64,000 nt of DNA from Neoroseomonas oryzicola. GTDB taxonomy: Bacteria; Pseudomonadota; Alphaproteobacteria; Acetobacterales; Acetobacteraceae. The notes under the pieces are model-generated. The model was not told the origin of the DNA. It did no database searches and worked only from the letters and a program-made list of their open reading frames with translations. This document shows positions 30,514 to 48,408 of this stretch, one piece after another (the first letter of the stretch is position 1; every line of letters begins with the position of its first letter). The position numbers and the translations under genes were made by a program. The stretch is from contig NZ_JAAVUP010000003.1 in the NCBI RefSeq assembly GCF_012163135.1, forward strand, positions 214,283-278,282, in the 5' to 3' direction.

Positions 30514-32176
30514 GGCTGACTGGAGGGGCGCTGCCCCCTGAGTCCGCCTTTGCCGAACCGGTGGACAGAGCGTTGAGGACGCCGCCGACGGTGGTGTCCT
30601 CCTGGGTCAGATTAACGCCGCCGGCGCGGAGCAGCTCGACGAGTTGACCCACCAGTTCAATCTCGGGTGGGTCGTCCGGCCCTTGTCCGGGGCTGACGAT
30701 GACCTTGTCGATGAGGGCGCGGGCGGCCTCCAACACCTCTGGGTCCTCTCGCCCTTCGATCGCGGTCCGTAGCACGGCGACCCGATCGGCGTAGACCTCG
30801 GCGAGATTGGGATGCAACGCGGGTGCCGGGGCCGGCTGGTCCTTCAGCGCCGCCAGCAACTGCCCGCGACGGGACTCCAGTTCCTCCAGCTTCCGCTGCA
30901 CGCCGGGCGCCCGCACGCCCTCGGCGATGGCCTCGACGAGGTTGTCCAGCTTTCTCTGGATTGCTTGCAATTCGAGCCTGTGCGCCGCGGTCGCGGCCGA
31001 GGCCTCCGCCTGGGCCCCGTTCCACGCCTCGACGAACGCTCGGCAGAACGCGGCGACGAGGTCGGGGCGCATGAGCCGGGAGCCCAGCGCCTCCATGATC
31101 ATCGCCTCGAGCTTTGGTCGCCGGACCCGGCGGGTGTTGGAGCAGCCCTTGCCGCGCCGGGCGCGCTGGCAGCCGAGGTAGTCCCTCCCCAGGGCGGCGA
31201 AGGTGCCCCCGCAGGTGCCGCACACCACCTTGCCGGTCACGAGGTGCTTCGGCCGCCGGCGTTCCCAGAACGCGGGAATGGCCCCGTCGCTTTCCCGGGC
31301 GACCTCCTGGGACAGACGCGCCTGGGCACGCTCCCAGAGCGTGTCGTCGATGATGCGCAGCCCGGGCACATCCGCCTCGACCACCTCCTCGGGAGGACGC
31401 TTGCGGCGGACGTGGCGCCCGGTCAGCGGATCGCGTGGCTGGTGGCTGCGGTTCCAGCGCAGCCGGCCGGCGTAGATCGGATTGCGCAGGATGCCGTCGC
31501 CGCGCTGGGCGCGGCCGCGGATGCCGGTGTCGTACCAGGGCGTTCCCGCCGGGCCGGGGATGCCCTCGGCATTCAGCGCCGCTGCGATGGTGCGGGGGCT
31601 GGGGCCGGCGACGTAGTCGCCAAAGATGCGGCGGACCACGGCAGCCTCGGCCGGGTCGATCTCCCGGAGGCCTCGCACCGGCTCGCCCTGGTCGTCGAAC
31701 CGGCGGACCTTGCGATAGCCGTAGGGCGGGGCGCCGAACGCAAAGCCCTTGCGGACCCTGCCCACCTGCCCGCGATGGGTCTTGGCGGCGAGGTCCTTGA
31801 GGTAGAGGGCGCCCATGGTGCCCTTGAGACCGACATGGAGCTCGGAGATCTCGCCCTCGGCGAGGGTGACAATGCGCACCTGGCAGAACGTCGCCTGCTT
31901 GTGGAACGCCGCGACGTGCTCGAGGTCGCGGGAGAACCGGTCGAGGCTTTCGGCGAGGACGATGTCGGCCTTGCCGGTGCGGATGGCCTCCAGCAGGCCC
32001 TGGTAACCCGGCCGGAGCAACGTGGCCCCGGAGATGGCGGCGTCCGAGAACTGGCCGACGATGGTCCAGCCCTCGCGTGCGGCGCGCTCGTGGCAGATCC
32101 GGAACTGGTCCTCGATGGAGGCGGCGCTCTGCAGGTCGCTCGAGAACCGCGCGTAGATCAGGCAGCGCACGGTCAT
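30440..32176 (-). CDS. Large serine recombinase
   Basis: The 578-aa recombinase has an N-terminal resolvase domain (LIYARFSSDLQSAASIEDQ, catalytic Ser12; VLAESLDRFSRDLEH), a recombinase domain (residues about 165-290, PPYGYRKV, ILRNPIYAGRLRWNRS), a zinc-ribbon (VCGTCGG, then CQRARRGKGCSN) and a coiled-coil region (about 395-450). These are the domains of phage-type large serine integrases that join attachment sites. The frame crosses the element boundary near 30540, so the last 33 or so residues come from host flank, and the stop lies antisense inside the PASTA-like gene. The ATG overlaps the preceding recombinase stop (ATGA). Confidence 0.92.
   Translation of the reverse strand: MTVRCLIYARFSSDLQSAASIEDQFRICHERAAREGWTIVGQFSDAAISGATLLRPGYQGLLEAIRTGKADIVLAESLDRFSRDLEHVAAFHKQATFCQVRIVTLAEGEISELHVGLKGTMGALYLKDLAAKTHRGQVGRVRKGFAFGAPPYGYRKVRRFDDQGEPVRGLREIDPAEAAVVRRIFGDYVAGPSPRTIAAALNAEGIPGPAGTPWYDTGIRGRAQRGDGILRNPIYAGRLRWNRSHQPRDPLTGRHVRRKRPPEEVVEADVPGLRIIDDTLWERAQARLSQEVARESDGAIPAFWERRRPKHLVTGKVVCGTCGGTFAALGRDYLGCQRARRGKGCSNTRRVRRPKLEAMIMEALGSRLMRPDLVAAFCRAFVEAWNGAQAEASAATAAHRLELQAIQRKLDNLVEAIAEGVRAPGVQRKLEELESRRGQLLAALKDQPAPAPALHPNLAEVYADRVAVLRTAIEGREDPEVLEAARALIDKVIVSPGQGPDDPPEIELVGQLVELLRAGGVNLTQEDTTVGGVLNALSTGSAKADSGGSAPPVSLSQAGSARCTRRPPENHCPPPSSR
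30521..30538. repeat. REP-like element, left half (copy D, interrupted)
   Basis: TGGAGGGGCGCTGCCCCC is the first hairpin of the REP-like element. It stops exactly where the integrated element begins; the expected continuation (CTCC, AGGCCTCCCCGCC and the next hairpin) is found at 48409, on the other side of the element. Confidence 0.75.
30537..30559 (+). repeat. Left terminal inverted repeat of the element
   Basis: Read outward on the minus strand it begins GGTTCGG and ends CAGG. An ungapped comparison with 48386-48408 gives 16 of 23 identities, including GGTTCGG at the inner end and CAGG at the outer end. Confidence 0.65.
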
Positions 32177-33294
32177 GGCGCCTTCCGGCGGGTTTGCCGG
32201 GCCGCGCCCTTCGCGCGGCCCCGCCAGCCATAGTGCGAGGCGGCAAGCGACCAGGTCTCCTTGCGCAGGCCAGCGATGCGGACGCCATGGCGGCGCAGCG
32301 CCTCAGTGCCGCGGGACTTCAGGTAGTGGTCGATGGAGACCTGCGGGTCGTGCCCGAGGGCAGCCCCGGCGTCGAGCGCCAGTTCCGGGGAGATCATGGA
32401 GGCCGTGGTGCGCAGGCACTTGCGAAACCAGTGCGGCCCCTCCTCGCGCCCGAACCAGGCCTTGGTCCGCCGGCGGACGACCTTGCCGAGATCAAGCGCC
32501 GACAACGCCCTGCCCCTGGTGCCGATCCAAACGGCGGCGCTGAACGCGCTGCCCGGGAGGCTGGGACGGACGTCCGAAAGATAGCGATCGAACACGGGAA
32601 CCAGCTCGGGATGCATGTCGTAGCTCATGAACACCTTGGTCTTGGTGTCCTTCTCGCCGAAGTGCAGACGGTATCCAGCCTCGGTCCGGACGATGTTCTC
32701 GCCGATCTCCATGGCGCTGACGGAGCGGATGCGAGGGCCGTGGGCGGCGAGCAGCCCGAGCAGCGCGGCATCGCGCACCGCAACCCGACCCCGGGCGTAG
32801 CCCCGTCCCTCGCAGCCTGCCCGGAACAGATCGAGGGCGCGGGCCAGGAGTTCGCGAGAGTCGCGGACCTCGCACCAGCGCGGCTTCGGCTTCAGCAAGC
32901 GGCGCAGGGAGCGCCCGCCGGGTTGGAGGATGAACCCGACATCGGCAGCGGGATCGATCAGGGCGAGGCAGCGCTGCAGGTCGCGCAGGCGGCCGTGGAT
33001 GGTGGTGCCGCGATTGCCACGCCCCCGCTGGTCGGCGATCCAGCTGTCGAGCCGGGCCCGGGTCGCACGGGCAGCCGGCGAGGCCAGCGGATCGAGCTCG
33101 CCGCGGCGCCGGAGGTAGTGGAGCCACACGCCATAGGCCTCGCGGATCTTGCGCCGGGCGAAGTCACCGAGTTCGAGAGAGGCGCCATTCTCGTCGAACG
33201 GGCTGTCAGCGGCAGAGAACGCGCCTTCCCATGCCGCGCGGTCCTCCGCGGGCCAGTCCGCCAGCCCGAGGGACCAGACGCGCGCCCGCGTCAC
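32173..33294 (-). CDS. Tyrosine recombinase / site-specific integrase
   Basis: The 373-aa protein has a core-binding N-terminal half (TTIHGRLRDLQRCLALIDP) and a C-terminal catalytic domain with a full tyrosine-recombinase set: Arg I in AAHGPRIRSV (about 188), Lys in GEKDTKTK (about 218), HWFRK (His288-x2-Arg291), GHDP (His315) and nucleophile Tyr324 in SIDHYLKSRG. The GTG start overlaps the upstream integrase stop, and its own stop overlaps the serine-recombinase start, so three recombinase genes are translationally coupled. It appears intact. Confidence 0.88.
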   Translation of the reverse strand: MTRARVWSLGLADWPAEDRAAWEGAFSAADSPFDENGASLELGDFARRKIREAYGVWLHYLRRRGELDPLASPAARATRARLDSWIADQRGRGNRGTTIHGRLRDLQRCLALIDPAADVGFILQPGGRSLRRLLKPKPRWCEVRDSRELLARALDLFRAGCEGRGYARGRVAVRDAALLGLLAAHGPRIRSVSAMEIGENIVRTEAGYRLHFGEKDTKTKVFMSYDMHPELVPVFDRYLSDVRPSLPGSAFSAAVWIGTRGRALSALDLGKVVRRRTKAWFGREEGPHWFRKCLRTTASMISPELALDAGAALGHDPQVSIDHYLKSRGTEALRRHGVRIAGLRKETWSLAASHYGWRGRAKGAARQTRRKAP

Positions 33295-33733
33295 TGGCGG
33301 CGCCCCCGCTTGCGGCCGGCCACACCCGGCGGCAGCGGCGCCAGTGGCGGCATCACGCCGCGGTTGCGTTTGGCAAATCCCGCATCGGCGATGAACCGGG
33401 TGCGCCGGCGCTCCGTGGTGAGGACCTCGGTGAGACGGGCGATCGCCCCCTTCGGCGCCCAGGAGGCGTAGAACCGCATCGAGGTATCGAAGGTCGTGTG
33501 ACCGAGGACGAGGCGCAGATCCTCGATCGCGTGCGGATTGGCGCCGAGGATGAACGCGCCGGCGAGCGCCCGGAACTGGTGCGTCGACATCCTGACGCCG
33601 ACGCTGCGATGGATGGCCAGGCTGATCGCATTGCCGAGGCCCCCCTTGTGGCGCGGCTGGTCGAGATGCGCCTTGGAGGGGAACAGCCAGTCGCTTCCGG
33701 CATTCGGCAGCAGGGGCCGGTAGTGGCGGATGG
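33291..33733 (-). pseudogene. 5'-truncated tyrosine recombinase (catalytic C-terminus only)
   Basis: The frame ending at 33291 encodes LLPNAGSDWLFPSKAHLDQPRHKGGLGNA..., then MSTHQFRALAG (the His-x2-Arg box), LVLGHTTFDTSMRFYAS (His and nucleophile Tyr) and a basic tail. This is the end of a tyrosine recombinase. Upstream, the frame meets a stop at about 33734-33736 and the core-binding domain and Arg I are missing. The only ATG (33590) would give a 99-aa fragment. Its stop is coupled (GTGA) to the intact tyrosine recombinase, so it was once the first gene of a three-recombinase operon. Confidence 0.75.
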
Positions 33734-33868
33734 CCTACACGAAACAGCACGCGGATCCTGCCGCCGAAAATCGTCGAACGCGACGTCGGCAACGCCCAAG
33801 GCCAGGAAAATGCTGGCGCCGCAGCGTGGATCGAAAACATCCATCAGCCCGCCAACGACACCACCCAC
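33734..33868 (-). pseudogene. 5' fragment of an unknown gene abutting the truncated integrase
   Basis: An ATG at 33868 opens a frame, MGGVVGGLMDVFDPRCGASIFLALGVADVAFDDF, whose composition looks protein-like. It then runs into the integrase remnant in the wrong frame and becomes Ser/Arg-rich. I read this as the start of another gene joined by deletion to the integrase remnant near 33735. The family is not recognised. Confidence 0.35.
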
Positions 33869-33902
33869 GATAAAGGCCCCGCCGGATGTCTCCGGCGGGG
33901 CC
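33868..33902 (-). terminator. Rho-independent-type terminator
   Basis: GGCCCCGCCGGA, a TGTC loop and TCCGGCGGGGCC form a perfect 12-bp stem (33875-33902). Read leftward it is followed by TTTATC. It lies 6 bp after the stop of the leftward gene at 33908-34249 and should end that transcript before the recombinases. Confidence 0.75.
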
Positions 33903-33907
33903 CGATG

Positions 33908-34249
33908 TCAGTTCTTCGCCTCCGAGGCAGGCGGCACGGCCCGGAACAAGGCCGCGCCCGTCGATCCGAGATCACGCAGCACGAGGCGCCCGAAGCCTTG
34001 GAGGCGCTCATGCGCCTCGGTCAGCTCCTGCAGCGTCGCCTGGAGCACCTCGTTGAGGCACTCCAGGGACGACAGGGCAGCGGCGGCGTCGACGACCTCG
34101 TCGCCCTGGAGGGCGGTCAGGTCGTTCCTGCTCATCTCGGCCACTCCGCGCAGTTGGGCGATCGCAGGCTCGATCTCGTGAAGCCCGCGCGCAGCGTCGA
34201 GCAACTCGCCGAGCGTGCGCTGGCGAGGGGAGGGTTTCCCTTCGGTCAT
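33908..34249 (-). CDS. Small helical protein of unknown function
   Basis: This 113-aa acidic, Leu/Ala/Glu-rich protein is predicted to be almost entirely helical, with heptad-like stretches (LGELLDAARGLHEIEPAIAQLRGVAEM; AALSSLECLNEVLQATLQELTEAHERLQGFGRLV). No signal peptide or membrane segment is visible. I do not recognise the family. The ATG at 34249 has AGGAA 6 bp upstream. It has its own promoter-like upstream region and terminator, so it is an independent unit within the element, possibly an accessory or regulatory factor. Confidence 0.65.
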   Translation of the reverse strand: MTEGKPSPRQRTLGELLDAARGLHEIEPAIAQLRGVAEMSRNDLTALQGDEVVDAAAALSSLECLNEVLQATLQELTEAHERLQGFGRLVLRDLGSTGAALFRAVPPASEAKN

Positions 34250-34299
34250 GATGGTTCCTGATTGTTGGGATTGCAAATCGCTGGCCGGCTGGGATCCGG

Positions 34300-34455
34300 C
34301 GCGATGCCGAACATTCAAATGAATATTCGGCGTGAATTATATTTTAATCGAAGTAAATAAATTCAATAAGAAAGAAAACAATACTTTTGTTCCTTGAAAA
34401 ATCTCTCTGTATATATTCGATTTTTTCATTAATTATCCGTCATTGTTGACCCTAG
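34300..34455. other. AT-rich tract
   Basis: This roughly 150-bp stretch is strikingly AT-rich compared with the rest of the window and contains short palindromes (ATTCAAATGAAT, GAATATTC) and runs such as GATTTTTTCATTAATTA. It is non-coding and holds the candidate promoter above. The composition suggests foreign origin or a regulatory/nucleoid-protein-binding segment of the element. Confidence 0.7.
34335..34365 (-). promoter_or_regulatory. Candidate sigma-70 promoter for the small helical protein
   Basis: On the minus strand TTGAAT (34360-34365) and a perfect TATAAT (34335-34340) are separated by 19 bp, slightly longer than ideal. It lies about 90 bp upstream of the ATG at 34249, inside the most AT-rich tract of the window. 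Confidence 0.4.
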
Positions 34456-35507
34456 GAGATCCCTGCGAAACGCCTTGCTGATGGCGGCTGTCGTTGATTC
34501 GCTCGGTGGATCGGCAACGGTGGCGAGGCGGTGATGGGTCAGCGGCGGATCGGACAGGGGAGCCTGGCGGAGGCGCTGTTGCCGGCGGGTGCCGGTTCCA
34601 ATCGCCGGCTGGAGCGCATCGCCGGCCTGATCGACTGGACGCCGATGGAGCGCCTGCTCGCCCCGCTCCGGGCGCCGACGGGGCGGCCCGGCTACCCGCC
34701 GCTGGCGCTGTTCCGCGCGCTGCTGCTGGCGCAGTGGTACCGGCTTTCCGATCCGGGCCTCGAGGAAGCGCTGGCCGACCGGCTGTCGTTCCGCCGCTTT
34801 TGCGGCTTCGGCCTGGACGACGGCACGCCGGACGAGACCACGCTGTGCCGCTTCCGCGGTGCGCTCGCCGAGCGTGGCCTCGCCGAGGCGCTGTTCGCCG
34901 CGCCGAGGCGCGCTGGGCCGGGCACCGCCGCCGCAAGCCCACCCACGGCTACAAGGCGCACGTCGCCACTGACGAGGGCGCCGGGCTGGTCCGCGGCGTC
35001 GAGGTCACGACGGCGAATGTCCATGACGCAGCCGAACTCGCGGCGGTGCTGCCCGACGATCCGGGCGAGGTGTACGGCGACAGTGCCTTCGGCGGCACGC
35101 GCTCCGCCAACGCGATCAAGGCCAAGGGCGGCGTCCCCGCCGTGATCGGGACCGGCACCTGGGGCGGGCCGGCCGCGCTGGCGCGGCTGCGGGCCCACAA
35201 CGCCCGTGTGCGGCGGGTCCGCTGCCGCATCGAGAAGGTGTTCGGCACCTGGAAGCGCAGCTACAGCCTGCGTCGGATGCGATGGCTCGGCCTGGCCAAG
35301 GCCGGGCTGCAGGTCCGCCTCGCCGCCATGGCCTACAACCTCCGCCGCACGGTCTCCCTCCTGCGTGACGCTCCGGCATGAGGCAGGGCGCGTCTGCACG
35401 CGCGCGCTCGACAGACCGCCCACCGCACAGCACGCCGGACCACATTGTCACATGCGCGGGCTCGGAGCCTCAGATCGCCTTCCGCCGCACTTCCGCGCAC
35501 AGGTCTC
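34456..35507 (+). mobile_element. Degenerate IS5-family insertion sequence
   Basis: About 1.05 kb surrounds a broken IS5-type transposase. Probable ends are GAGATCCCTGCG at 34456 and, inverted, GAGACCTGTGCG ending at 35507 (9 of 12 matches). A CTAG immediately before the left end fits a YTAR target, but no matching duplication is present on the right, so the ends are provisional. Confidence 0.6.
34534..35381 (+). pseudogene. IS5-family transposase, internal deletion plus frameshift
   Basis: From the ATG at 34534 the frame encodes the IS5 N-terminal domain (GRPGYPPLALFRALLLAQWYRLSD, then the first Asp in DDGTPDETTLCRFR). At about 34893-34905 the reading shifts to another frame that continues with RRRKPTHGYKAHVATDEGAGL, YGDSAFGG (second Asp region) and RCRIEKVFGTWKRSYSLRRMRWLGL (Glu region) to the stop at 35381. 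The linker between the two parts in intact relatives is missing, so there is both a deletion and a frameshift. The transposase should be inactive. Confidence 0.8.
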
Positions 35508-35660: not shown

Positions 35661-36536
35661 TCAACCTTCGGCCACCGGACTGGATTTGGCGGCCCGCGCG
35701 AAGATGGCGGCGGCGACGACGGCGCACACCAGCTGCACCGGCAGCGCCAAGACGACGGCCACCACTGCCCGTTCGTCGGGCGCCTCCATCGCGAGCAGCG
35801 GCGCCAGCGCCGCACCCAGGTTGCGCGTGCACATGCCAAGCCCGAGCACACTGCGTTCACCTTGCGCGAGCCCACCGCCGGAGCGGTAGGCCATGAGGGT
35901 GAGAGCGCCGAGGAACAGGACCTCGGCCACGACCACCCGTTCCCCGAAGGTCCCGGCCATGCTGCGGCCGTAGACGATCACGCAGAGGACCAGCAGCGCG
36001 ACCGCCGCGAGGCCGCCGACCGCCCTGGCCCAGGGATGCAGCGCCGCGGCGACCGGCGGGGCCGCGCCGAACACCGCCATCCCCACGAGGAGGGGCAGCA
36101 GCACCAGGACCAGGATGGGCCTGGCGACGGTCCAGGCATCGATCGTCAGGCCTTCGGCAACCAGCGGCCCCACCACGGGCAGCACGAGCACCGTCCCGAC
36201 CGCCGCGACGAGCATCATCGCCGCCGCGTAGCGCATGTCTCCCTTGGCGTGCCGAACCAGGGCGGGCAGGAAGGGCGCGCAGGGCGTCAGTCCGACGAGC
36301 GTGAGGCCCGCGGCATAGGATGGGTCGAGCCGCAAGACGCGGCCGATCGCCCAGGCGAGTGCAGGCCCCACCACGAAGCCGAACGCCACCGCGCGCGCCA
36401 GGAACCGGCGGTTTCCGAGGCAGGCCAGCGCATCGCGCACGCGCAGCTCGAGGCCCATGTCGAGTAGGGACCCAACCATGAAGCCGATGAGGGAGACCCT
36501 CACCGCCAGCGCGAGCAGCGCGTCGAGATCCTGCAT
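35661..36536 (-). CDS. Bile-acid:sodium symporter (BASS/SBF)-like membrane protein
   Basis: The 291-aa protein has about nine or ten hydrophobic helices and no signal peptide. VSLIGFMVGSLLDMGLELRVRDAL at the start, LTLVGLTPCAPFLPALVRHAKGD (the conserved APxxP/ALA-like segment with a sodium-site flavour) and VLGLGMCTRNLGAALAPLLAME near the C-terminus match the SBF/BASS superfamily, which moves organic anions with sodium. The substrate is unknown. It is transcribed leftward 25 bp after ppk2, possibly as part of the same transcript. Confidence 0.8.
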   Translation of the reverse strand: MQDLDALLALAVRVSLIGFMVGSLLDMGLELRVRDALACLGNRRFLARAVAFGFVVGPALAWAIGRVLRLDPSYAAGLTLVGLTPCAPFLPALVRHAKGDMRYAAAMMLVAAVGTVLVLPVVGPLVAEGLTIDAWTVARPILVLVLLPLLVGMAVFGAAPPVAAALHPWARAVGGLAAVALLVLCVIVYGRSMAGTFGERVVVAEVLFLGALTLMAYRSGGGLAQGERSVLGLGMCTRNLGAALAPLLAMEAPDERAVVAVVLALPVQLVCAVVAAAIFARAAKSSPVAEG

Positions 36537-36561
36537 GGCGGGCCGTCCGCCGCGTGCCGGA

Positions 36562-37476
36562 TCAGCCGCCGCTTGGCGGCGCGCCCACCGTGTCCGCGAC
36601 GACCTTCCAGGGGTAATCCGGCTCGACGTAGTCGCCTGGCTTCTGGCGCTTCGGCAGCTCCACCTTCTCGCGCTTCGGCGCCTCGTAGGGGATGTGGTGC
36701 AGGAAGTGGCGGATGATGTTCAGCCGCGCGCGCTTCTTGTCGTCCGAATGCACGACGTACCAGGGCGCCCAGGACGAATCCGTCGCCTTGAAAATGTCGT
36801 CGCGGGCACGGGAATAGTCGTACCAGCGGCTGTAGGACTTGAGGTCCATCGGCGAGAGCTTCCACAGCTTCCGCCCATCGTCGATGCGCGCCTCGAGTCG
36901 GCGCGTCTGCTCCTCCATGCTGACTTCGAGCCAGTATTTAAGAAGGATGATGCCGGAATCGACGATCGCCTTCTCGACGGCGGGCACCATGTTCAGGAAG
37001 TAGTGGACCTGCTCGTCGTTGGCGAAGCCCATCACGCGCTCGACGCCGGCGCGGTTGTACCAGGATCGATCGAAGATCACGATCTCCCCCGCCGCCGGGA
37101 AGTGCTGGATGTAGCGCTGGATGTACATCTGCGACTTCTCGCGCTCGGTCGGCGCGGGAAGGGCGACGACGCGAAAGACTCGCGGGCTGACGCGCTCGGT
37201 AATCGCCTTGATGGTGCCGCCCTTGCCGGCGCCGTCGCGGCCCTCGAAGACGATGCAGACGCGCGCGCCGGTCTCCTGCGCCCACATCTGCACCTTCACC
37301 AGCTCGACATGCAGGTCGAACAGCGCCTTCTCGTATGCCTTGCGCGACAGCTTCCCGTCCGGCTTGAACGGAGAGGCCGCCCGATCCGCCGCGCCGCCCT
37401 TGCGGGACTGCGGGTCGACCTGCGCGGGATCGTGGCCACCCCTGTCCTTCTTGGTCTTCTTGTCCTTCTTGGACAT
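36562..37476 (-). CDS. ppk2: Polyphosphate kinase 2
   Basis: The 304-aa cytosolic enzyme moves phosphate between polyphosphate and nucleotides. After a Lys/Asp-rich N-terminal tail it shows Walker A GRDGAGKGG (79-87), the PPK2 signature FDRSWYNRAGVERVMGF (Walker B-like Asp plus lid), LLKYWLEVSMEEQTRRLEARIDD and WYVVHSDDKKRARLNIIRHFLHHIPY. A single PPK2 domain of this length fits class I. Direction of catalysis (NTP synthesis or polyP synthesis) cannot be told. It lies 38 bp downstream of the 151-aa unknown gene and probably shares its transcript. Confidence 0.95.
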   Translation of the reverse strand: MSKKDKKTKKDRGGHDPAQVDPQSRKGGAADRAASPFKPDGKLSRKAYEKALFDLHVELVKVQMWAQETGARVCIVFEGRDGAGKGGTIKAITERVSPRVFRVVALPAPTEREKSQMYIQRYIQHFPAAGEIVIFDRSWYNRAGVERVMGFANDEQVHYFLNMVPAVEKAIVDSGIILLKYWLEVSMEEQTRRLEARIDDGRKLWKLSPMDLKSYSRWYDYSRARDDIFKATDSSWAPWYVVHSDDKKRARLNIIRHFLHHIPYEAPKREKVELPKRQKPGDYVEPDYPWKVVADTVGAPPSGG

Positions 37477-37514
37477 CGCGGCCTCCTTCGGGCGCTTTGC
37501 TGCTGCCGGTTGCC

Positions 37515-37970
37515 TCAGCCTTCCTCGGGATGCTTCCAGGTCAGGAACCATCCGCAGTCTCCCGGCATGCCGCCCGGCCAGTCGACGATCTCGACCTGCA
37601 GCTGGAAGCCCCGGGGCTGCAGTTCCTTCACGTAGAAGTCGTAGGCGCGCTTCGGAAAGCCCTCGAGCTTCTCGTGCCAGTTGCTGTCGTGGGTGGTGAT
37701 GCCGCGCCCGGAGTCCGGCAGCCATTCCGAGGGAAACTGCAGGACCAGGGCACGCTTCTCGCCGTTCTCGATGGCCCGGCGCACCACGGCGGCGATCCGA
37801 TCCATCGCCTCGGGCTGCACCTGGCGTTCCTTGAATGACTCGCGGATTGCGTCGCGCTCTGCCTGCGCCGCAGCCTCGGCGGTGCGACGCTGCTCTTCGG
37901 CACGCTTCTTCGACTGCGCTATGGTGTCCCAGATCGCCTGGACGCTCAGGTTGGATCCATCGATGGTCAT
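37515..37970 (-). CDS. Conserved-looking 151-aa protein of unknown function
   Basis: The protein begins with a charged helical region (SKKRAEEQRRTAEAAAQAERDAIRESFKERQ, about 20-50), followed by a compact alpha/beta part with WLPDSGRGITTHDSNWHEKLEGFPKRAYDFYVKELQPRGFQLQVEIVDWPGG and GWFLTWKHPEEG at the end. No signal peptide or membrane segment is visible. I do not recognise the family. It precedes ppk2 in the same direction, so a link to polyphosphate metabolism is possible but unproven. Confidence 0.7.
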   Translation of the reverse strand: MTIDGSNLSVQAIWDTIAQSKKRAEEQRRTAEAAAQAERDAIRESFKERQVQPEAMDRIAAVVRRAIENGEKRALVLQFPSEWLPDSGRGITTHDSNWHEKLEGFPKRAYDFYVKELQPRGFQLQVEIVDWPGGMPGDCGWFLTWKHPEEG

Positions 37971-38119
37971 GTCGGCTCCGCCTTTCCTTCCGCCATACCC
38001 GTTGAAGGGCGGCGCATCGGCTGCGCAATATCAATCACAATAATGACACTGCGGTTCGCCGGATTGTCCGGCGCAAAGGAGAAGGTGCGTAAGTTACAGT
38101 GACGTGCGCCCCCGCCCCG

Positions 38120-40391: not shown

Positions 40392-42032
40392 ATGCGGCAG
40401 GTGCGGTTCGCGGAAGGATGGCTCGCGGCAGGGGCTGGCGCCGCCGTCCTGCTGGGAAGTGCTCCGGCGCTCGCGCAAGGCACCGAGGACCTGCTGCGCC
40501 GGATCGACGCGCTCCAGCGCCGGGTGGAGGAACTTGAGGCGGCGCAGCGGACGGTCCAGCGCCCACCGCCGGCGGCCGCCCGCGCGCCTGCGACGGCGCC
40601 GCGCACCGCGGCGGCTCCGTCGCCGCGTCCGCCCGTGACCCCGGTCGTCGTGCCCGCGCCGGCAGCAGCCGCGCCGGCCCCCCCGCAAGCGCAAGCCGAC
40701 GTCGCGCAGCCACGCGTCACGCGCGAGGAGGTCGACGCGGCGCTGCGCGGCAGCCTCCCGAACTCGTGGCGCATTCCCGGTACGGACACCTCGGTCCGCC
40801 TCTACGGCTTCGGCAAGGCGAACATGTGGGGCTCGCTGAACGTGCGCGACCGCGGCGATGCGCCCTCGGTACAGGGCATCCCGCTCGCCGGCAGCCCGGC
40901 GGATCTCCAGGGCGGCGATCTCAACTTCAGTGCGCGCCGTTCGCGCATCGGATTCGAGACGCAGACGCCCTCGGACTGGGGTCCGGTCTTCACGCGCATC
41001 GAGATCGACTTCGCCGGCGACCAGCCCAGCGCCTCGGGCGCCGCCACATCCTCCGGCTACATGCCGCGGTTGCGCCAGGCTTTCGTCGAGGTTGGCGGCG
41101 ACGTTTTCCGCGTCCTGGTCGGTCAGGCGAACAGCGTCTGGAACGACGGCCTAATCGAGACGCTGACGGATGCGACCTTCCTCAACGCCTCGGCCGTGCG
41201 GCAGGCACAGGTCCGGCTGACCGGGCGCCTGGCCGAAGGCCTGACCGGCATGGTCTCGATCGAGGCGCCCTATACCGACTACACGAGCGCTGCCGGCGTC
41301 TTCTATCCGGATTCGACCTACGACGGCGGCGCGAGCCCGGCGATCAACCAGGTACCCGACCTGCTGGGGCGGCTGACCTATCGCGGCGATTTCGGCGAGG
41401 CATCGCTGCGCGGCGTCGTGAGGCAGCTGAAGATCGACACCAATGGCACAGCGGCGGCGGGCGCTGGATCCGACAGCACCGTGGGCTGGGGTGTGGCGCT
41501 GAACGCCAACCTCGCGCTGCGGAACGTCTGGGAGGGCTTCGGCAACGACCAGCTGATCGGCATGACCTACTACGGTCAGGGCATCGGCCGGTACTTCGAT
41601 TCCGCCTATTCCGGCCAAGGAGCCTACACCAATCTTGGCCTGCCCGGCGCGACGGCCGCCTTCAGCATGGATGCGACGCCGGCCTGGGGCTTCCTGGTGG
41701 GCTATCGCCTGGCCTGGCTGACCCAGCTGCGCAGCACTTTCGCCTATGCCTACGCGCGGCAGGATAATCCGACCTACGTGTCCGAGTTCACGCCGGGCTC
41801 CTCGGCGGCGCTCGCGGCGAACCGCGATATGCAGATGGCGGTGGCGAACCTGATCTGGAGTCCCTTCGCCCGCGAGAGCAACGGGCGCGTCACCAACGGG
41901 TGGCTCGATGTCGGGGTGGAGTACATCTTCTTCCGGCGCGACATCCAGGGCGGCGCGGCCGCCGCTGGCGTCGGCCAGTACGGCCACGGCATCGAACAGC
42001 GCCTGCAGACCAGCCTGATTGCGCGCTTCTAG
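40392..42032 (+). CDS. DcaP-type outer-membrane porin
   Basis: The 546-aa precursor has a signal peptide ending SAPALAQ, a short coiled-coil heptad (TEDLLRRIDALQRRVEELEAAQR), an Ala/Pro-rich linker (about 55-110) and then a beta-barrel: SVRLYGFGKANMWGSLNVRD, FSARRSRIGFETQTPSDWGPVFTRIEIDF, LRQAFVEVGGDVFRVLVGQANSVW, ending in IARF with a C-terminal Phe. This coiled coil plus linker plus barrel layout is that of DcaP-like trimeric channels, which in Acinetobacter take up dicarboxylates. It precedes the decarboxylase by 142 bp in the same direction and may admit the module's substrate. Confidence 0.87.
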   Translation: MRQVRFAEGWLAAGAGAAVLLGSAPALAQGTEDLLRRIDALQRRVEELEAAQRTVQRPPPAAARAPATAPRTAAAPSPRPPVTPVVVPAPAAAAPAPPQAQADVAQPRVTREEVDAALRGSLPNSWRIPGTDTSVRLYGFGKANMWGSLNVRDRGDAPSVQGIPLAGSPADLQGGDLNFSARRSRIGFETQTPSDWGPVFTRIEIDFAGDQPSASGAATSSGYMPRLRQAFVEVGGDVFRVLVGQANSVWNDGLIETLTDATFLNASAVRQAQVRLTGRLAEGLTGMVSIEAPYTDYTSAAGVFYPDSTYDGGASPAINQVPDLLGRLTYRGDFGEASLRGVVRQLKIDTNGTAAAGAGSDSTVGWGVALNANLALRNVWEGFGNDQLIGMTYYGQGIGRYFDSAYSGQGAYTNLGLPGATAAFSMDATPAWGFLVGYRLAWLTQLRSTFAYAYARQDNPTYVSEFTPGSSAALAANRDMQMAVANLIWSPFARESNGRVTNGWLDVGVEYIFFRRDIQGGAAAAGVGQYGHGIEQRLQTSLIARF

Positions 42033-42174
42033 GCAGAGCGAGATCGCTGGATGCCCTCGCCCGTCGCCGCCGCTTGACGTGCATCAGTATCCCGGCCCGC
42101 CCAATGACGGAGCCTTTCTTTCAACACGAGCTTCGCCTGCCAATACCGGCGGGGCCATCGGGGGGAACGCCGCC

Positions 42175-44886
42175 ATGACAACCAGCACCGGCCGCATCGA
42201 CCAGTTCCTGCTCCTCCATGCGGCGCGCGCCGACAAATGGCGTGAGCTCATCAGCCTTGCTGGCGAATGGGCGCGCGGCAAAGGCGATCGGATGGCAGTC
42301 GAAGCCGCAGTCGCGGCAATGGCGCCGTTGGAGGAATTCCACGCCTATCCGGGCGCCCGGTTACTAGCCGCACTCAATGAGCGGGTCGCCGGCGGTGACG
42401 CCGCTGGCGTCGCTACCCTGGCCAGGCGGATCTCTAATGCGCTGCTGACGCGCGCCTATCGCGAACGCCCCGGCGAATGGGATCTGCATGACGAGATGCC
42501 AGCCGGCGAGGTCGTCGACGTGCTGCCGCCGGCCCTCGGCGAGCGGGAGACGCACCGGCCATACTTCGAGGTGCTATTCGTCGTCGCTCAGCCGGCTTCG
42601 CGCTGGCCCGCCCTCGCCGCAGAGATCCGCCGCCTGCGTCGCCCCGAAGATGCCTTCGTCTACGAGGCGGTGATCGTTGGGTCCTTCGAGGACGCCTTCT
42701 GCGCCGCGGCAATGAACCCGGCGATCGGCGCCGTCGTGATGGCCGAGGGCTTCTCCTATCGCTCGCGCCACGACGCGCCGGCGCTGCGTGCGGTCCTCGA
42801 GCCCTTCGGCGAGCCTGGGAGCCCGGAGGACACTGCGCTCTTCCTTGCCTCCGCGATCAAGCGCATCCGCCCCGAGCTCGATCTCTATTTGCTGTCGGAC
42901 CGGGAGGTGGAACGGCTCGCCGGCGATCCGGAGGCCGACAGCTTCCGGCGCATCTTCTATGGCGTGGAGGAACTGCTTGAGCAGCACCTGGCAATTCTGG
43001 AAGGCGTGCAGGCTCGCTACGAGACGCCCTTCTTCGACAACCTGAAGAAGTACGCGATGCGGCCGATCGGCACCTTCCACGCCCTGCCGATCGCGCGCGG
43101 CAAGTCGGTGTTCAATTCCGACTGGATCCGAGACATGGGCGAGTTCTACGGCATCAACCTGTTCCTCGCGGAAAGCAGCGCGACGACAGGCGGGCTCGAC
43201 AGCCTTCTGGAGCCCACCGGTAACATCAAGAAGGCGCAGGAGATGGCCGCGCGCGCCTTCGGCGCCGACCACGTCTTCTTCGTGACCAACGGCACCAGCA
43301 CCTCCAACAAGATGGCGGTGCAGGCGCTGACCGCGCCGGGCGACATCGTCATCGTCGACCGCAACTGCCACAAGTCGCACCACTACGGCATGGTGCTGAC
43401 GGGCGCGCAACCGCTCTACGTCGAAGCCTATCCGATGACGGAATACTCGATGTACGGCGCCGTGCCGCTCGCCACCATCAAGAAGGCGATGCTGGCGCTG
43501 AAGGCGGAAGGCAGGCTGGACCGGCTGAAGATGCTGGACCTGACCAACTGCACCTTCGACGGCCACATGTACAACACGCGGCGGGTGATGGAGGAATGCC
43601 TCGCCATCAAGCCCGACCTGATCTTCCTGTGGGACGAGGCCTGGTCGGGCTTCGCGCGCTTCTCGCCCTTCCTGCGCCCGCGCACGGCGATGGGCGCGGC
43701 CGCCGACATCGAGGCCTGGCTGCGCGATCCGGCATCGGTCGCGGCGTATGAGAAGCAGCGCGCGGACCTTGGCGACGCGCCGTCGGAGGAGGCGCTGCTC
43801 GCCACGCGGCTTATCCCGAATCCGCGGCAGGTGCGGCTGCGCGTCTACCAGACCAACTCCACCCACAAGTCGATGTCGGCGATCCGCCAGGGCTCCATGC
43901 TGCTGGTCAAGGATGTCGACTTCCATACGGTCGAGACGCAGTTCCACGAAGCCGTCTTCACCCACGCCTCGACCAGCCCGAACCAGCAGCTCATCGCGAG
44001 CCTCGACGTCGCGCGGCGCCAGATGGAGCTCGAGGGCTACGGCCTGGTGATGAACGCGATCGAGATCGCGCTGAAGATCCGCCTCGCGGTCAACTCGCAC
44101 CCATTGATCTCGAAATACTTCCGGGTCCTCGGTGCCGACGAGATGATCCCGGCTGCCTATCGCCAGTCCGGCTTCCAGGACTACACGAGGCCGGGGACTG
44201 GCTGGGCCGACGCGGTGAAGGCGATGCGGGAGGACGAGTTCTACCTCGACCCCACCCGCATGACGCTGGTCTGCGGCACTGCCGGCTTCGACGGCACGCA
44301 GTTCAAGGGGCTGCTGGCGAACGAGTACGATATCCAGCTCAACAAGACGTCGCGCAACTCGGTGCTGCTGCAGTCGAACATCAACAACACGCGCAGCGAC
44401 GTCGCGCACCTCATCCGCGTGCTCGTCGAGATCTGCCACGGCATCGAGAAGCGCCTGGCCGATGGCGGGCCGGAGGAACAGGCGTCCTTCGCCGCGCGGG
44501 TGAAGTCGTTGATGACGGACGTGCCGGACCTGCCGAACTTCAGCCACTTCCACGAGGCCTTCCGCGGCGATGCCGGGCGCGACACGCCCGAAGGCGACAT
44601 GCGCAGCGCCTTCTTCGGCGCCTACCACCCCGAGCTCTGCGAATACGTCCCGCTGTTCGGCGCCGAATGCGACCGGCGGCTCAGGGAGGGGCCCGAGATG
44701 GTCTCGGCCAACTTCGTCATCCCCTATCCGCCGGGCTTCCCGATCATGGTGCCCGGCCAGGTGATCACGCAGGAGACGATCGACTTCATGCGCAAGCTCG
44801 ATGTGAAGGAGATCCACGGCTACGAGAAGACCAAGGGACTCAAGCTGCTCAAGCCCGACGCCGTCGCGGCGCGCGGCCGGCGCTGA
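42175..44886 (+). CDS. Biodegradative Orn/Lys/Arg decarboxylase (fold-type I PLP enzyme)
   Basis: The 903-aa enzyme belongs to the large inducible arginine/lysine/ornithine decarboxylases (AdiA, CadA, SpeF class). The wing domain is followed by the PLP core: NLFLAESSATTGGLDSLLEPTGNIKKAQ, VFFVTNGTSTSNKMAVQAL (phosphate site), IVDRNCHKSHHYG, DLIFLWDEAWSGF (Asp for the pyridine N) and NSTHKSMSAIRQG with Lys565 as the Schiff-base lysine. It is about 150 residues longer than AdiA, with an extra N-terminal region. Substrate (Arg, Lys, Orn or another amino acid) cannot be decided. Two AspT-family antiporters follow 12 bp downstream, suggesting substrate/product exchange. Confidence 0.9.
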   Translation: MTTSTGRIDQFLLLHAARADKWRELISLAGEWARGKGDRMAVEAAVAAMAPLEEFHAYPGARLLAALNERVAGGDAAGVATLARRISNALLTRAYRERPGEWDLHDEMPAGEVVDVLPPALGERETHRPYFEVLFVVAQPASRWPALAAEIRRLRRPEDAFVYEAVIVGSFEDAFCAAAMNPAIGAVVMAEGFSYRSRHDAPALRAVLEPFGEPGSPEDTALFLASAIKRIRPELDLYLLSDREVERLAGDPEADSFRRIFYGVEELLEQHLAILEGVQARYETPFFDNLKKYAMRPIGTFHALPIARGKSVFNSDWIRDMGEFYGINLFLAESSATTGGLDSLLEPTGNIKKAQEMAARAFGADHVFFVTNGTSTSNKMAVQALTAPGDIVIVDRNCHKSHHYGMVLTGAQPLYVEAYPMTEYSMYGAVPLATIKKAMLALKAEGRLDRLKMLDLTNCTFDGHMYNTRRVMEECLAIKPDLIFLWDEAWSGFARFSPFLRPRTAMGAAADIEAWLRDPASVAAYEKQRADLGDAPSEEALLATRLIPNPRQVRLRVYQTNSTHKSMSAIRQGSMLLVKDVDFHTVETQFHEAVFTHASTSPNQQLIASLDVARRQMELEGYGLVMNAIEIALKIRLAVNSHPLISKYFRVLGADEMIPAAYRQSGFQDYTRPGTGWADAVKAMREDEFYLDPTRMTLVCGTAGFDGTQFKGLLANEYDIQLNKTSRNSVLLQSNINNTRSDVAHLIRVLVEICHGIEKRLADGGPEEQASFAARVKSLMTDVPDLPNFSHFHEAFRGDAGRDTPEGDMRSAFFGAYHPELCEYVPLFGAECDRRLREGPEMVSANFVIPYPPGFPIMVPGQVITQETIDFMRKLDVKEIHGYEKTKGLKLLKPDAVAARGRR

Positions 44887-44898
44887 GGGGAGGCGGAC

Positions 44899-46599
44899 AT
44901 GGCAGCCTTCTTCAACTTCCTCGCGGCGAACCCGTTTATCCTGCTGTTCGTGACGGTCGGCCTCGCGGTCTGGCTGGGGCGGCAGTCGGTCGCGGGCTAC
45001 GGGCTCGGCATGGTGGCGGCGGCCATTATCGTCGGCTGCGGCCTCTCGGTCTGGGCCTCGGTCTATGGGGAGAAGCTCGAGCTCAACAACTTCACCAAGA
45101 GCCTCTTCTACTACCTGTTCATGTATGGCGTCGGGCTGCGGGTCGGGCCGTCCTTCGTCAACAGCCTTGGCGGGGACGGCATCAAGTTCACCTTCCTCGC
45201 CTTCGTCTCCTGCATCATCGGCCTCGCGCTGGTGGTGCTGGGCGCCCGGTTCCTCGAACTGCCGCCAGGTGCCGCGGGCGGGATGCTGGCGGGTTCGCAG
45301 ACCATGTCGGCGGCCATCGGCTCGGCGGAGCAGGCCGTCACCGCCGGCGCCATCGCGCTGCCGCCAGGCAGCACGCCGGAACAGGTGAGCGCGATGATCG
45401 CGTTGTCCTACGGCATCACCTACATCTGGGGCACGGTCGGCATCATCCTCATCACCAAGTACCTGCCGAAATGGTGGGGCGTGGATGCGCGCGCGGCCGC
45501 CCAGGCCTACGAGAAGGAACACGGTGTCGCCTCGGGCGATGCGCCGGCCTTCTCCGGCTGGACCGCCGGCGGGCTGCGCGCCTACCGGCTCGAGAACCAG
45601 GCCTGGGTCGGGCGGAGCATGCACGACATGCTGCGCGAGAACCCGGAGTACCGTTTCGTGAACTTGGTGCGCGACGGTGCCCCGATCGGGGCACCGCTGG
45701 ACGAGCCGCTGCGCCTCGGCGACGTCATCGCGCTTGGCGGCCTGCGGGAGGCGATGACCGAGAAGATGGGGCTGATCGGTCCCGAAGTCTCCGACCGGAC
45801 CGCGCTCGACCTGCCGCTCGACCGTGCCGAGATCCTCGTCACCAACGGCGGCATCCTCAAGCAGACGCGCGAGCAATGGCGCGCCCTGCCGGGCGTCGAC
45901 CAGATCCAGGTGGTGGGCCTGGAGCGCGGCGGCGCGCCGATCCCGATCGGCAAGGACACGAAGCTCCAGCGCATGGACATCGTGACGGTCGTCGGGCTCA
46001 AATCCGCGGTCAGCAAGGTCGGCGAGGCCTTCGGACGCGTCGTGCGTCCCTCGACCGCGACGGATCTGCTGACGCTCTCGCTCGGCATGATCCTCGGCTT
46101 CCTGATCGGGCAGATCGAGTTCCCGGCCTTTGGGGCGAAGGTCGGTCTCGGCAATGCCGGCGGACTGCTGGTGTCGGGTGTGCTCGTCTCCTCCGTCGCC
46201 TCGCGACTGCGCTTCTTCGGCAATACGCCGGCGGCGGCGCGCAACGTGCTCGAGGATCTCGGCCTGGTGGTCTTCGTCGCCATTGTCGGCATCAATGCGG
46301 GCAACTCGTTGCTCGCGCAGCTGACCGGCGTGCTGGCGCTCAAGATCTTCCTGGTCGGCTTCGTCGCCTGCACCATCCCGCCCATCGTCGTCTGGGCCAT
46401 CGGCTTCCACGTGTTCAGGATGAACCCGGCGGTGCTGATGGGCGGCGTGGCCGGCGCGCGCAGCCATTCGGGGCCGTGCCGCGAGGCCGCGGTGGAGATC
46501 CAGTCCAACGTGCCCTGGATCGGCTTCCCGGTCGGCTACGCCGTCTCCGGCGTTCTGCTGACGGTCTTCGGATACTTTGCGATGGTTCTCGCCCAGTAA
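44899..46599 (+). CDS. AspT-family (AAE) amino-acid antiporter, first copy
   Basis: The 566-aa membrane protein has the aspartate:alanine exchanger layout: hydrophobic helices at residues 1-190, a central cytosolic region with two TrkA_C-like domains (about 205-375, for example LRLGDVIALGGLREAM and LQRMDIVTVVGLKSAV), and further helices to the end. GGMLAGSQTMSAAIGSAEQAV and MGGVAGARSHSGPC are the paired re-entrant-like GxxAG(S/A)xT/S motifs of the family. AspT in Tetragenococcus swaps aspartate for alanine next to a decarboxylase; the pairing here suggests an analogous cycle with another amino acid. A GAGGGGAGG Shine-Dalgarno precedes the ATG. Confidence 0.88.
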   Translation: MAAFFNFLAANPFILLFVTVGLAVWLGRQSVAGYGLGMVAAAIIVGCGLSVWASVYGEKLELNNFTKSLFYYLFMYGVGLRVGPSFVNSLGGDGIKFTFLAFVSCIIGLALVVLGARFLELPPGAAGGMLAGSQTMSAAIGSAEQAVTAGAIALPPGSTPEQVSAMIALSYGITYIWGTVGIILITKYLPKWWGVDARAAAQAYEKEHGVASGDAPAFSGWTAGGLRAYRLENQAWVGRSMHDMLRENPEYRFVNLVRDGAPIGAPLDEPLRLGDVIALGGLREAMTEKMGLIGPEVSDRTALDLPLDRAEILVTNGGILKQTREQWRALPGVDQIQVVGLERGGAPIPIGKDTKLQRMDIVTVVGLKSAVSKVGEAFGRVVRPSTATDLLTLSLGMILGFLIGQIEFPAFGAKVGLGNAGGLLVSGVLVSSVASRLRFFGNTPAAARNVLEDLGLVVFVAIVGINAGNSLLAQLTGVLALKIFLVGFVACTIPPIVVWAIGFHVFRMNPAVLMGGVAGARSHSGPCREAAVEIQSNVPWIGFPVGYAVSGVLLTVFGYFAMVLAQ

Positions 46600-46623
46600 A
46601 TCTGGGCGCGGGGGAGACCGGGA

Positions 46624-48312
46624 ATGGCGTGGTTCGAAGCGTTTCTCGTGAAGTATCCGGAACTTGCGCTGTTCCTGGTCATTGCCATCGGATACGCGAT
46701 CGGGGGGGTGAAGGTCGGCGGGTTCAGCCTCGGGCCCGTCACCGGCTCGCTCTTTGCCGGCATCCTGGTCGGGCAGTTCGCGCATGTGCCGGTCTCGGGC
46801 ATGGCGAAATCCTTCCTCTTCCTGCTGTTTCTCTTCGGCATCGGCTACTCGGTCGGACCGCAATTCATGCAGGCGCTGAAAAGGGACGGGCTGAAGCCCG
46901 TGCTGCTGGCGATCGTCTGCTGCGTGACCGGACTGCTGACCGCGGTCGTGGTCGCCAAGGCGCTGGGGCTCGACCCCGGCTTCGCGGCGGGCCTGGTTTC
47001 CGGAGCGCTGACGGAAAGCCCAGCCATGGGCACGGCGACCGAGGCGATCAACGCCCTGCCGCTGCCGGTCGACGAGCGTGCGCGGCTGGTCGCGCACATC
47101 GCCGTGGCGGATGCGGTCTGCTACATCTTCGGTGCCGCGGGCCTCATCATCTTCGTCAGCGTCGTGGCGCCGAAGCTGCTCGGGATCGACCTGCCCGCCG
47201 AGGCGGCGAGGCTCGAGCAGGAGCTTGGCATCGCACGCAAGGCTCCCGGCGTCGTCTCCGCCTATCGCCGATTCGAGGTGCGGGCCTATCGGCTCGGGGC
47301 GGACGCGCAGGCCGTCGGGCAGGCGGTGGCGGCACTCGAGGCGCGGAACGCGGTGCATCGGCTGTTCATCCAACGCGTCCGGCGCAACGGGGAATTGCTG
47401 GAAGCGGGGCCCGACCTGGTCCTCGCGGTGGGCGATGTCGTCGCCGTCTCGGGACGGCGAGAGTATCTCGTGGAACTGGTGGGGCCGCGTGCCGAGGAAG
47501 TGGAGGACCGCGATATCCTCGACGTACCCGTCGCCGCGGTGGACGTGCTGCTGACGAGCCGCGACCTGGCGGGCCGGCGACTCGACGAGATCGCCGAGAG
47601 CGACTTCGCCCGCAGCCTCTACCTCCGGGGTGTCCGGCGCGGCGATCAGGACCTGCCGTTCGCGCCGCACCTCACGCTGCAGCGCGGTGACCTCGTTCAG
47701 CTCGTCGGGCCGGAGCCGGTGGTCGCCAAGGCAGCGTCGCGCATCGGCGTGGTCGTGGCGCCGACGACGGCGACGGATTTCGTCACCCTCGGCCTGGCGA
47801 TCTTCCTCGGAGGGCTCGCCGGCGTGCTGATCACGGTGCCGATCGGCGATATGAGGATCTCGCTGAGCACGAGCGTCGGCACGCTGCTGGCGGGGCTGCT
47901 TGTGGGTCACCTGCGGACGCGCTTCCCGCTGTTCGGGCGCATCCCGGATGGGGCGGTGTCGCTGATGACAGCGCTCGGCCTCGCCGCCTTCGTCGCGATG
48001 ACAGGACTGCACGCCGGGCCGATCTTCCTGACTTCGCTGGCCGAGGCCGGGATCGGGCTATTCTTCGGCGGCGCGCTGGTGACGCTGATGCCGCTGATCG
48101 TTGGGCTCTATTTCGGGCGCTACGTGTTGCGGATGAACCCGATCCTCCTGCTGGGGGGGCTCGCCGGGGCGCAGACGATGACGGCGGGAATGGCGGCGGT
48201 GCAGGAGCGGTCGGGCAGCCCGGTGGCGGTCCTGGGCTATACGCCGGCGGTGCCGATTGGGCATATCTTATTAACAACTTGGGGGACGGTGATCGTGGGG
48301 ATCGTCTCGTAG
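46624..48312 (+). CDS. AspT-family (AAE) amino-acid antiporter, second copy
   Basis: The 562-aa paralogue has the same helix - two TrkA_C - helix layout. LVSGALTESPAMGTATEAINAL and LLGGLAGAQTMTAGMAAVQE are the paired AAE motifs, and PDLVLAVGDVVAVSGRREYLVEL and LTLQRGDLVQLVGPEPVV lie in the central domains. The two copies are clearly diverged, for example LAGSQTMSAAIGSAE against VSGALTESPAMGTATE, so they are not a recent duplication. They could form a heteromer or handle different substrate/product pairs. It starts 24 bp after the first copy and ends 73 bp inside the right end of the element. Confidence 0.88.
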   Translation: MAWFEAFLVKYPELALFLVIAIGYAIGGVKVGGFSLGPVTGSLFAGILVGQFAHVPVSGMAKSFLFLLFLFGIGYSVGPQFMQALKRDGLKPVLLAIVCCVTGLLTAVVVAKALGLDPGFAAGLVSGALTESPAMGTATEAINALPLPVDERARLVAHIAVADAVCYIFGAAGLIIFVSVVAPKLLGIDLPAEAARLEQELGIARKAPGVVSAYRRFEVRAYRLGADAQAVGQAVAALEARNAVHRLFIQRVRRNGELLEAGPDLVLAVGDVVAVSGRREYLVELVGPRAEEVEDRDILDVPVAAVDVLLTSRDLAGRRLDEIAESDFARSLYLRGVRRGDQDLPFAPHLTLQRGDLVQLVGPEPVVAKAASRIGVVVAPTTATDFVTLGLAIFLGGLAGVLITVPIGDMRISLSTSVGTLLAGLLVGHLRTRFPLFGRIPDGAVSLMTALGLAAFVAMTGLHAGPIFLTSLAEAGIGLFFGGALVTLMPLIVGLYFGRYVLRMNPILLLGGLAGAQTMTAGMAAVQERSGSPVAVLGYTPAVPIGHILLTTWGTVIVGIVS

Positions 48313-48385
48313 TAGCGATGCGGAACGTTCGGAGGCCGGACGTCGGTGTTCCCTGAGCGTCTGCGGATTAGGGTCGGGTCAGTGG

Positions 48386-48408
48386 GGTTCGGTATAAGTG
48401 GGTCCAGG
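48386..48408 (+). repeat. Right terminal inverted repeat of the element
   Basis: It begins GGTTCGGTATAAG and ends CAGG, and pairs with the inverted 30537-30559 (16 of 23 identities, no gaps). Beyond it the sequence continues directly as the second half of a REP-like element. Confidence 0.65.

Follow-up and report, generated by a model that had tools for sequence, protein, structure and literature searches.

Genomic islands that carry large serine recombinases (LSRs) are already known. Durrant et al. (2022, PMC10083194) described multi-targeting LSRs, which have relaxed specificity and/or targets at multiple sites, and the terms "palindrom-", "terminator" and "repetitive" are absent from the main text of that paper. 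In this study, we analyzed a stretch of 64,000 nucleotides from Neoroseomonas oryzicola, hereafter the window (G000:C23:214283-278282, where G000 is its own genome of 5.3 Mb), which contains an LSR island of about 18 kb (17.9 kb, window positions 30537-48408) that appears to be inserted in a repetitive extragenic palindromic (REP)-like repeat. As with the multi-targeting LSRs, one LSR lineage is found here at many loci, but the many sites of the present element are copies of a REP-like hairpin repeat.

The organization of the island also resembles the GInt, SE, Tn554 and RIT elements as described in PMC5385486 and PMC10214605, in which an operon with tandem tyrosine recombinases is located at one end, the cargo is variable and the terminal repeats are imperfect. 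Unlike in GInt and RIT, the third gene, which follows the tyrosine recombinase gene TyrB, encodes an LSR and not a tyrosine-recombinase-like protein, and the 6-bp donor-derived spacer reported for SE was not seen when the related element of N. marina was compared with its empty site. Tobes and Pareja (2006, PMC1525189) reported that REP-like palindromes are insertion hot spots of insertion sequence (IS) elements; in contrast to those IS transposases, the present element is an LSR island of a kind spanning 18-38 kb with a CC core. In phage Mx8 (PMC6070905), attP lies within the integrase coding sequence and integration gives the gene a new 3' end, which is similar to the arrangement proposed here; Mx8 has two neighbouring attB sites, whereas the new tail of the present LSR would depend on the repeat copy used. 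No report of an LSR island in REP-like repeats was found among the top-ranked titles and abstract openings of the open-licence PMC literature, which is weak evidence of absence. What appears new here is a lineage that has a dispersed REP-like hairpin as attB and is probably derived from a user of tRNA-fMet genes.

We consider it highly probable that the block is one element integrated by its own LSR into a REP-like repeat, and that its lineage arose from tRNA-fMet users by one change of target. This conclusion was drawn from the sequence of the ends, the core, two empty sites of sister elements, the target repeat, the tree and the gene order. A first-pass annotation of this DNA had proposed a single integrated element in a REP-like target, with recombinases of two classes and a cargo of transport, PPK2 and decarboxylase genes, and our results support this proposal.

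Both ends of the block are base-exact as first noted. The left hairpin, GGAGGGGC-GCT-GCCCC (30522-30537), is followed by the block, the repeat continues at 48409, and the outermost 23 bp of the block form an inverted repeat with 16/23 matches, all as the first-pass annotation had described. The chance of at least 16/23 matches for one fixed pair at this G+C content is about 1e-4. This pair coincides exactly with the break point of the REP-like repeat, and comparable inverted pairs (14-18/23) end seven further elements. The dinucleotide CC stands on both sides of the block (Table 1). The joint of the empty site had been expected between 30536 and 48409; the break does lie in the repeat, but this joint is wrong because CC would then stand twice, and the empty site would join 30534 to 48409 (or 30536 to 48411). 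Excision of the block together with one CC yields GGAGGGGCGCTGCCCCTCCAGGCCTCCCCGCCGAGGGCCGAAAGGCCCTCGGAACCC, which is the intact repeat. In the predicted attP, a CC core of 2 bp is flanked by two inverted arms of 23 bp each, and the 3' arm of hairpin 1 is the predicted attB. Among the features by which LSR elements are recognized are two inverted half sites with 2 bp of core between them, hybrid attL and attR sites, and an LSR with resolvase, recombinase and zinc-ribbon domains; these were all found here, CC and CCC being indistinguishable by sequence as the core. A GT dinucleotide centred between shorter arms was rejected as the core, because the N. marina ends are without it and the empty site puts the core at CC.

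We infer that a circular form of the element exists, and this form would carry attP as the two 23-bp inverted arms around CC. The LSR would recombine attP with attB, the hairpin-1 3' arm of an intact repeat (GGAGGGGCGCTGC-CC-CTCCAGGCCTCCCCGCC...), and integration would leave at each end a single attP arm and half of the repeat, joined by the CC core. Ancestral LSRs would have used the 3' end of tRNA-fMet genes, the target having changed once. Because attP sits in the last codons of the LSR gene, integration would swap the LSR tail for host-encoded residues. The LSRs of the window and of N. marina, when read through attP, are both 560 aa long with the tails GAWTHLYRTPLTRP and GACIPLYRTRLSPP, and as integrated they are 578 and 552 aa long with unlike tails; the reading frame through attP follows from the arm length and is not independent evidence. 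A stop was found at most 12 codons past the RT pair in seven of the eight two-ended elements listed below, and none in the stretch examined of the eighth (G029:C5). The tail swap would be expected to affect the activity of the LSR.

The comparison with relatives provided two empty sites of sister elements. N. marina JC162 (G009) and N. lacus (G008) are both genus-mates of the strain. The LSR of N. marina is 95% identical to that of the window, these being the only two among 11 aligned LSRs that share more than 90%, and it is located at another genomic place within an element of 28.75 kb (from about L048:8917 to about L047:17668). The two flanks of this element are adjacent in the window's own genome (locus L103), with alignments that overlap by 3 bp. 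The empty site reads GGAGGGGCGCCGC-CC-CTCCAAACCTCCCCGCC, attL reads GGAGGGGCGCCGC-CC-CCTGAGTCC and attR reads GGATACAGG-CC-CTCCAAACC, and every letter outside the arms at both ends equals the empty site. Eight further relatives (L104-L111) were compared at the N. marina site, and in six of them the island is absent and the flanks are at most 270 bp apart. The second empty site concerns the element of G033, whose LSR is 71% identical: at about 279.5 kb of G000:C23, some 1.2 kb past the right edge of the window, sequences matching both flanks (80% and 91% identity) enclose a REP-like composite within about 100 bp. The sequence of this composite is not that of the repeat halves adjoining the G033 element. 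It is possible that the element was never present at the empty sites of relatives.

The palindrome had been described as dispersed, and we found 49 places similar to the repeat in the own genome (query included), with 38 exact two-hairpin composites and none for a reversed control pattern. Exact composite copies numbered 23 in G009, 135 in G001, 120 in G029, 102 in G034 and 7 in G033, and the five genomes with two-ended elements hold 7 to 120 exact repeat copies. Composite matches were present in 27/35 genomes (reversed control, 0). The lineage is found at many loci because this repeat is dispersed. The expectation that similar 23-bp ends would occur elsewhere about 10-30 kb apart beside the same recombinases was borne out, as similar ends beside similar recombinases were found in other genomes 19-38 kb apart. 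A right-end pattern, which was derived from the window and N. marina ends and includes part of the repeat, gave 13 matches in 35 genomes versus 7 for its reversed control; nine of the 13 look true by eye, seven of these share a contig with a matching LSR end, and eight were used. The eight two-ended elements are those of the window, G009, G033, G029:C5, G034:C7, G034:C9 (two elements) and G000:C5/C17, the last with ends on different contigs and an inferred pairing. CC stands at both ends in all eight, the arm identity is 14-18/23, and the predicted attB is in each case an intact hairpin-1/spacer/CCCCGCC repeat, although six of the eight right ends were located with the above pattern, part of which is repeat sequence, and the right halves of these six, not their left halves, match by construction.

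We also examined 31 LSR 3' ends, a selection of the LSR matches in the 35 genomes with the C-terminal part present. By eye, 24 of them adjoin a hairpin and three are located at tRNA-fMet. The hairpin is of the type GGAGGGGC-NNN-GCCCC in 13 cases, GGGGGAGGGGAACCTCCCCC-like in nine and of other types in two, and the flanks of the 24 ends differ by eye. A stem of at least 5 bp was present at 21/24 hairpin ends versus 17% of 20,000 positions drawn at random from the same loci; for a stem of at least 6 bp, the figures were 15/24 and 6.4%. The anchors of these 24 ends were set once the hairpins were known. In the hairpin clade described below, some members use the second, GGGGGAGGGGAACCTCCCCC-like type, namely L053 (G000:C32), L054, L056, L133, L135 and L138. 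At the L049 and L053 insertions, a leftward start codon seems by eye to stand beside the hairpin, so the sites used probably extend beyond gaps between convergent genes.

To place this lineage, related LSRs were taken from GTDB genomes, namely the best 80 of at least 558 that were confirmed. ARAGORN detected tRNA-Met(cat) in 37/80 of their 3' flanks, and further flanks show the 3' end of the tRNA by motif. Some of the tRNA-site sisters keep the P' motif, as L152 and L155 do with CCACCTTTACCGAACG, and many do not show it. A quick tree of 93 LSRs without bootstraps, with 14 labelled hairpin, 55 labelled tRNA and 24 unlabelled and uncounted, requires only one change of label; the labels were partly assigned by motif and eye (by eye for the hairpins of L126, L147 and L150). 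The hairpin clade contains 15 rows, that is, all 14 hairpin-labelled LSRs and one unlabelled LSR, with an SH-aLRT support of 99. Its sister group comprises L127, L140 and L149, including two tRNA-site LSRs, one of which is from the own genome. These data suggest that the LSR lineage moved once from a tRNA-fMet gene target to REP-like hairpins. The own genome has two more LSRs of this family (L127 and L141; G000:C14:1-1760 and G000:C16:1-1770) that end at tRNA-fMet, and therefore both target types coexist in one genome.

This is a natural case of an integrase lineage leaving a tRNA target for a repeat, with base-exact ends and core and two empty sites. As relatives are available on both sides of the switch, the change of attB specificity in serine integrases becomes testable. 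It also indicates that REP-like repeats dock islands of tens of kb and not only IS elements, with rearrangement breakpoints at the same repeats, and a short, GC-rich, multi-copy attB may prove useful where multi-copy integration is wanted in laboratory strains.

The island encodes recombinases of two classes, and we infer that integration is carried out by the LSR rather than by the two tyrosine recombinases. TyrB precedes the LSR directly in 10/10 hairpin-site loci with at least 4 kb upstream, whereas a TyrB match was found in only 7/42 tRNA-site loci with the same upstream length and none in the other 35, by a BLAST search at E 1e-4. In loci with less than 4 kb upstream, TyrB was present in 1/4 at hairpin sites and 6/13 at tRNA sites. 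At most tRNA-site loci, then, the LSR alone appears to accompany the choice of site. A tentative extension, to which we give only a minor share of belief, is a two-class machine in which the LSR integrates at hairpins, the co-transcribed tyrosine recombinases and a MerR-like protein carry out another step, such as excision or copying, and the tail encoded by the host repeat sets whether the LSR acts again, the lineage again deriving from one change from tRNA-fMet to the repeat. It is improbable that TyrA and TyrB themselves move the element through its inverted ends, in the manner of Tn554, SE or GInt, with the LSR as a passenger or resolvase. The constant association at hairpin sites speaks for this mode, and the ends resemble the imperfect inverted repeats of 13-19 bp reported for SE elements (PMC10214605). 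Yet the LSR 3' end adjoins the site at the 35 tRNA-site loci without a TyrB match, the TyrA of the window is truncated, the letters outside the arms of the N. marina element all match the empty site, unlike the donor-derived 6-bp spacer of SEs, and CC is found at both ends in every two-ended element.

Besides the limits given with the counts above, several points weigh against integration of the block by its LSR after one change of target. No excision, circle or recombination was observed. TyrB accompanies the LSR at all the hairpin-site loci with sufficient upstream sequence, so a tyrosine recombinase may have a role at hairpins, and a distant tyrosine recombinase at tRNA sites may have been missed at the threshold used. 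The core may be CC or CCC, and in the subgroup with CTCATAG ends the arms are set one base further along the C run. Four of the 31 LSR ends are unassigned, L148 lies inside the hairpin clade without a clear hairpin, the stems of L051 and L142 have only 4 bp, and L125 scored 0, its anchor lying inside the hairpin. Finally, the window's own empty site was not found, and the two genes flanking it lie apart in the relatives examined.

The last point concerns the history of the locus. The first-pass annotation implied that the PASTA-like gene and hslU were joined before the insertion, and it named an ancestral order in which they were never neighbours as a refutation; as far as the data go, the adjacency was not upheld and such an order is what we found. 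In G009 and G001, where the PASTA homologue has at least 65% identity, another gene follows it (compared by letters), and in the own genome that gene is 107 kb away. The DNA past the hslU 3' end is dissimilar in 6/6 relatives with more than 200 bp available there, a seventh with 125 bp being left out. Neither the PASTA neighbours in G009 and G001 nor the hslU neighbours of relatives support an ancestral adjacency of the two genes. Integration is not thereby refuted, since the reconstruction of the repeat is exact and a rearrangement breakpoint lies in the same hairpin: the PASTA-side breakpoint relative to G009 falls within the hairpin, with a 20-bp overlap (G009:C12 372960-372979). It is likely that a repeat-mediated rearrangement made the order PASTA-REP-hslU and that the insertion followed. 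More widely, the comparison of G000:C23 110-358 kb with G009:C12 180-408 kb revealed many inversions and moves, and some breakpoints lie at REP-like copies (C23, about 217.3, 232.2 and 244.8 kb), suggesting that REP-REP recombination is behind these rearrangements. Near hslU-hslV (48514-50709), the region past the hslU 3' end looks like a breakpoint hot spot.

The heavy rearrangement relative to G009, with the PASTA-side breakpoint in the same hairpin and two more at REP copies, would also fit a block that is not one insertion, in which homologous recombination between REP copies joined unrelated segments and the end repeats are coincidental. We consider this very improbable, since the same arm geometry, CC core and rebuilt repeat are found in the window and in seven other elements, and two empty sites have adjacent flanks. 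That a REP-targeting IS-like element placed or expanded the block is scarcely credible: IS elements using REP sequences are known (PMC1525189), but the sole transposase match among the scanned open reading frames (ORFs) is an internal IS5-type one, which lies about 4 kb inward of the left end and 13 kb inward of the right, and the left end adjoins the LSR gene.

The features of the island are listed in Table 1.

Table 1. Features of the island and its borders in window coordinates; attachment-site assignments are predictions
Feature	Position	Strand	Basis or remark
B arm of attB: 5' arm, loop and start of 3' arm of REP hairpin 1	30522..30534	+	Near-identical string ends left flank of G009 element
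CC core, left copy	30535..30536	+	CC in attL, attR and empty site of G009 element
P' arm, left end of element, CCTGAGTCCGCCTTTGCCGAACC	30537..30559	+	Similar motif in some tRNA-fMet sister elements (L152, L155)
LSR gene, integrated state, 578 aa; tail beyond 30537 host-encoded	30440..32176	-	Pfam Resolvase 6.7e-22, Recombinase 4.4e-22, Zn_ribbon_recom 1e-08
TyrB, tyrosine recombinase, 373 aa; end overlaps LSR start	32176..33294	-	97% to G009 copy
TyrA remnant, residues 536-681 of 681	33294..33731	-	Comparison with G009
Small protein SP, 113 aa, no family	33908..34249	-	Comparison with G009 (84%); Pfam scan
AT-rich tract	34313..34440	.	Read from sequence
IS5-type (DDE_Tnp_1) transposase ORF, remnant by eye	34494..35381	+	Family match among scanned ORFs
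SBF/BASS-type transporter	35661..36536	-	Pfam/family scan
PPK2 polyphosphate kinase; domain at residues 229-455 of long ORF	36562..38034	-	TIGR03707 1.1e-104
TPR protein	38120..39700	-	Pfam
Porin	40392..42032	+	Pfam
Orn/Lys/Arg-type decarboxylase	42019..44886	+	Pfam; homologues 81-88% in 12 other genomes of genus
AspT-type antiporter 1	44899..46599	+	Pfam/family scan
AspT-type antiporter 2	46624..48312	+	TIGR03802 above cut-off
Predicted native LSR 3' end in circular form, attP inside ORF, 560 aa, tail GAWTHLYRTPLTRP	48368..48408	-	Same 560-aa length in G009 element
P arm, right end of element, GGTTCGGTATAAGTGGGTCCAGG	48386..48408	+	End comparison
CC core, right copy	48409..48410	+	End comparison
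B' side of attB: hairpin 1 remainder (CTCC), spacer AGGCCTCCCCGCC, hairpin 2 GAGGGCCGAAAGGCCCTC, GGAACC	48411..48451	+	Sequence

The recombinases at one end, the AT-rich tract and the IS remnant, which had been noted before, were all confirmed. The LSR profile matches the solved domains of TP901-1 integrase and TnpX. The two tyrosine recombinase genes stand in the order TyrA-TyrB upstream of the LSR, and from the overlap of the genes they are predicted to be co-transcribed with it. Pfam gave no match for TyrA or TyrB, and NCBIfam gave only a weak XerC match for TyrB (E 0.05). TyrB was assigned to its class by a profile match to XerD/XerA structures (best E 9.9e-11) and by R188, K218, H288, R291 and Y324, which are invariant over 13 homologues; TyrA was assigned through its full-length G009 homologue, which matches a PHROG integrase family (8.9e-07). 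The window copy is about 4 kb shorter than that of G009, the missing part including TyrA residues 1-535 and the MerR-like gene. The AT-rich tract may have a promoter-like role. No Rfam family, through which alone guide RNAs were looked for, matched within the window; ARAGORN found one tRNA in the window (57850-57942), away from the element ends; and no relaxase or conjugation genes were found among the window ORFs scanned, the other elements having been only partly scanned.

As for the cargo, the true start of PPK2 is probably near 37475, and the family names of the decarboxylase and AspT antiporters suggest a system for amino-acid decarboxylation and exchange. Cargo genes standing in relatives without recombinases had been named as an observation that would speak against an integrated element, and this was partly what we found. 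Eleven of the 12 decarboxylase-bearing genomes have no LSR match above 36% identity, and G027 has one at 52% on another contig. None of the four decarboxylase loci read (12-20 kb each; G011, G021, G024 and G027) has a recombinase of this module. G011 resembles the window cargo in the porin, the decarboxylase and both antiporters, and the other three in the decarboxylase and the first antiporter. The cargo thus also occurs on chromosomes without the element at those loci, a pattern that fits captured cargo. The N. marina element carries other genes: SIR2-like, Ham1-like and adenosine deaminase-like proteins and a RecQ-like helicase (L048:16900-20000, L047:1-1322), which by their family names are a possible defence set, and a short-chain-dehydrogenase-like gene (L047:10804-12321) between SP and the MerR-like gene.

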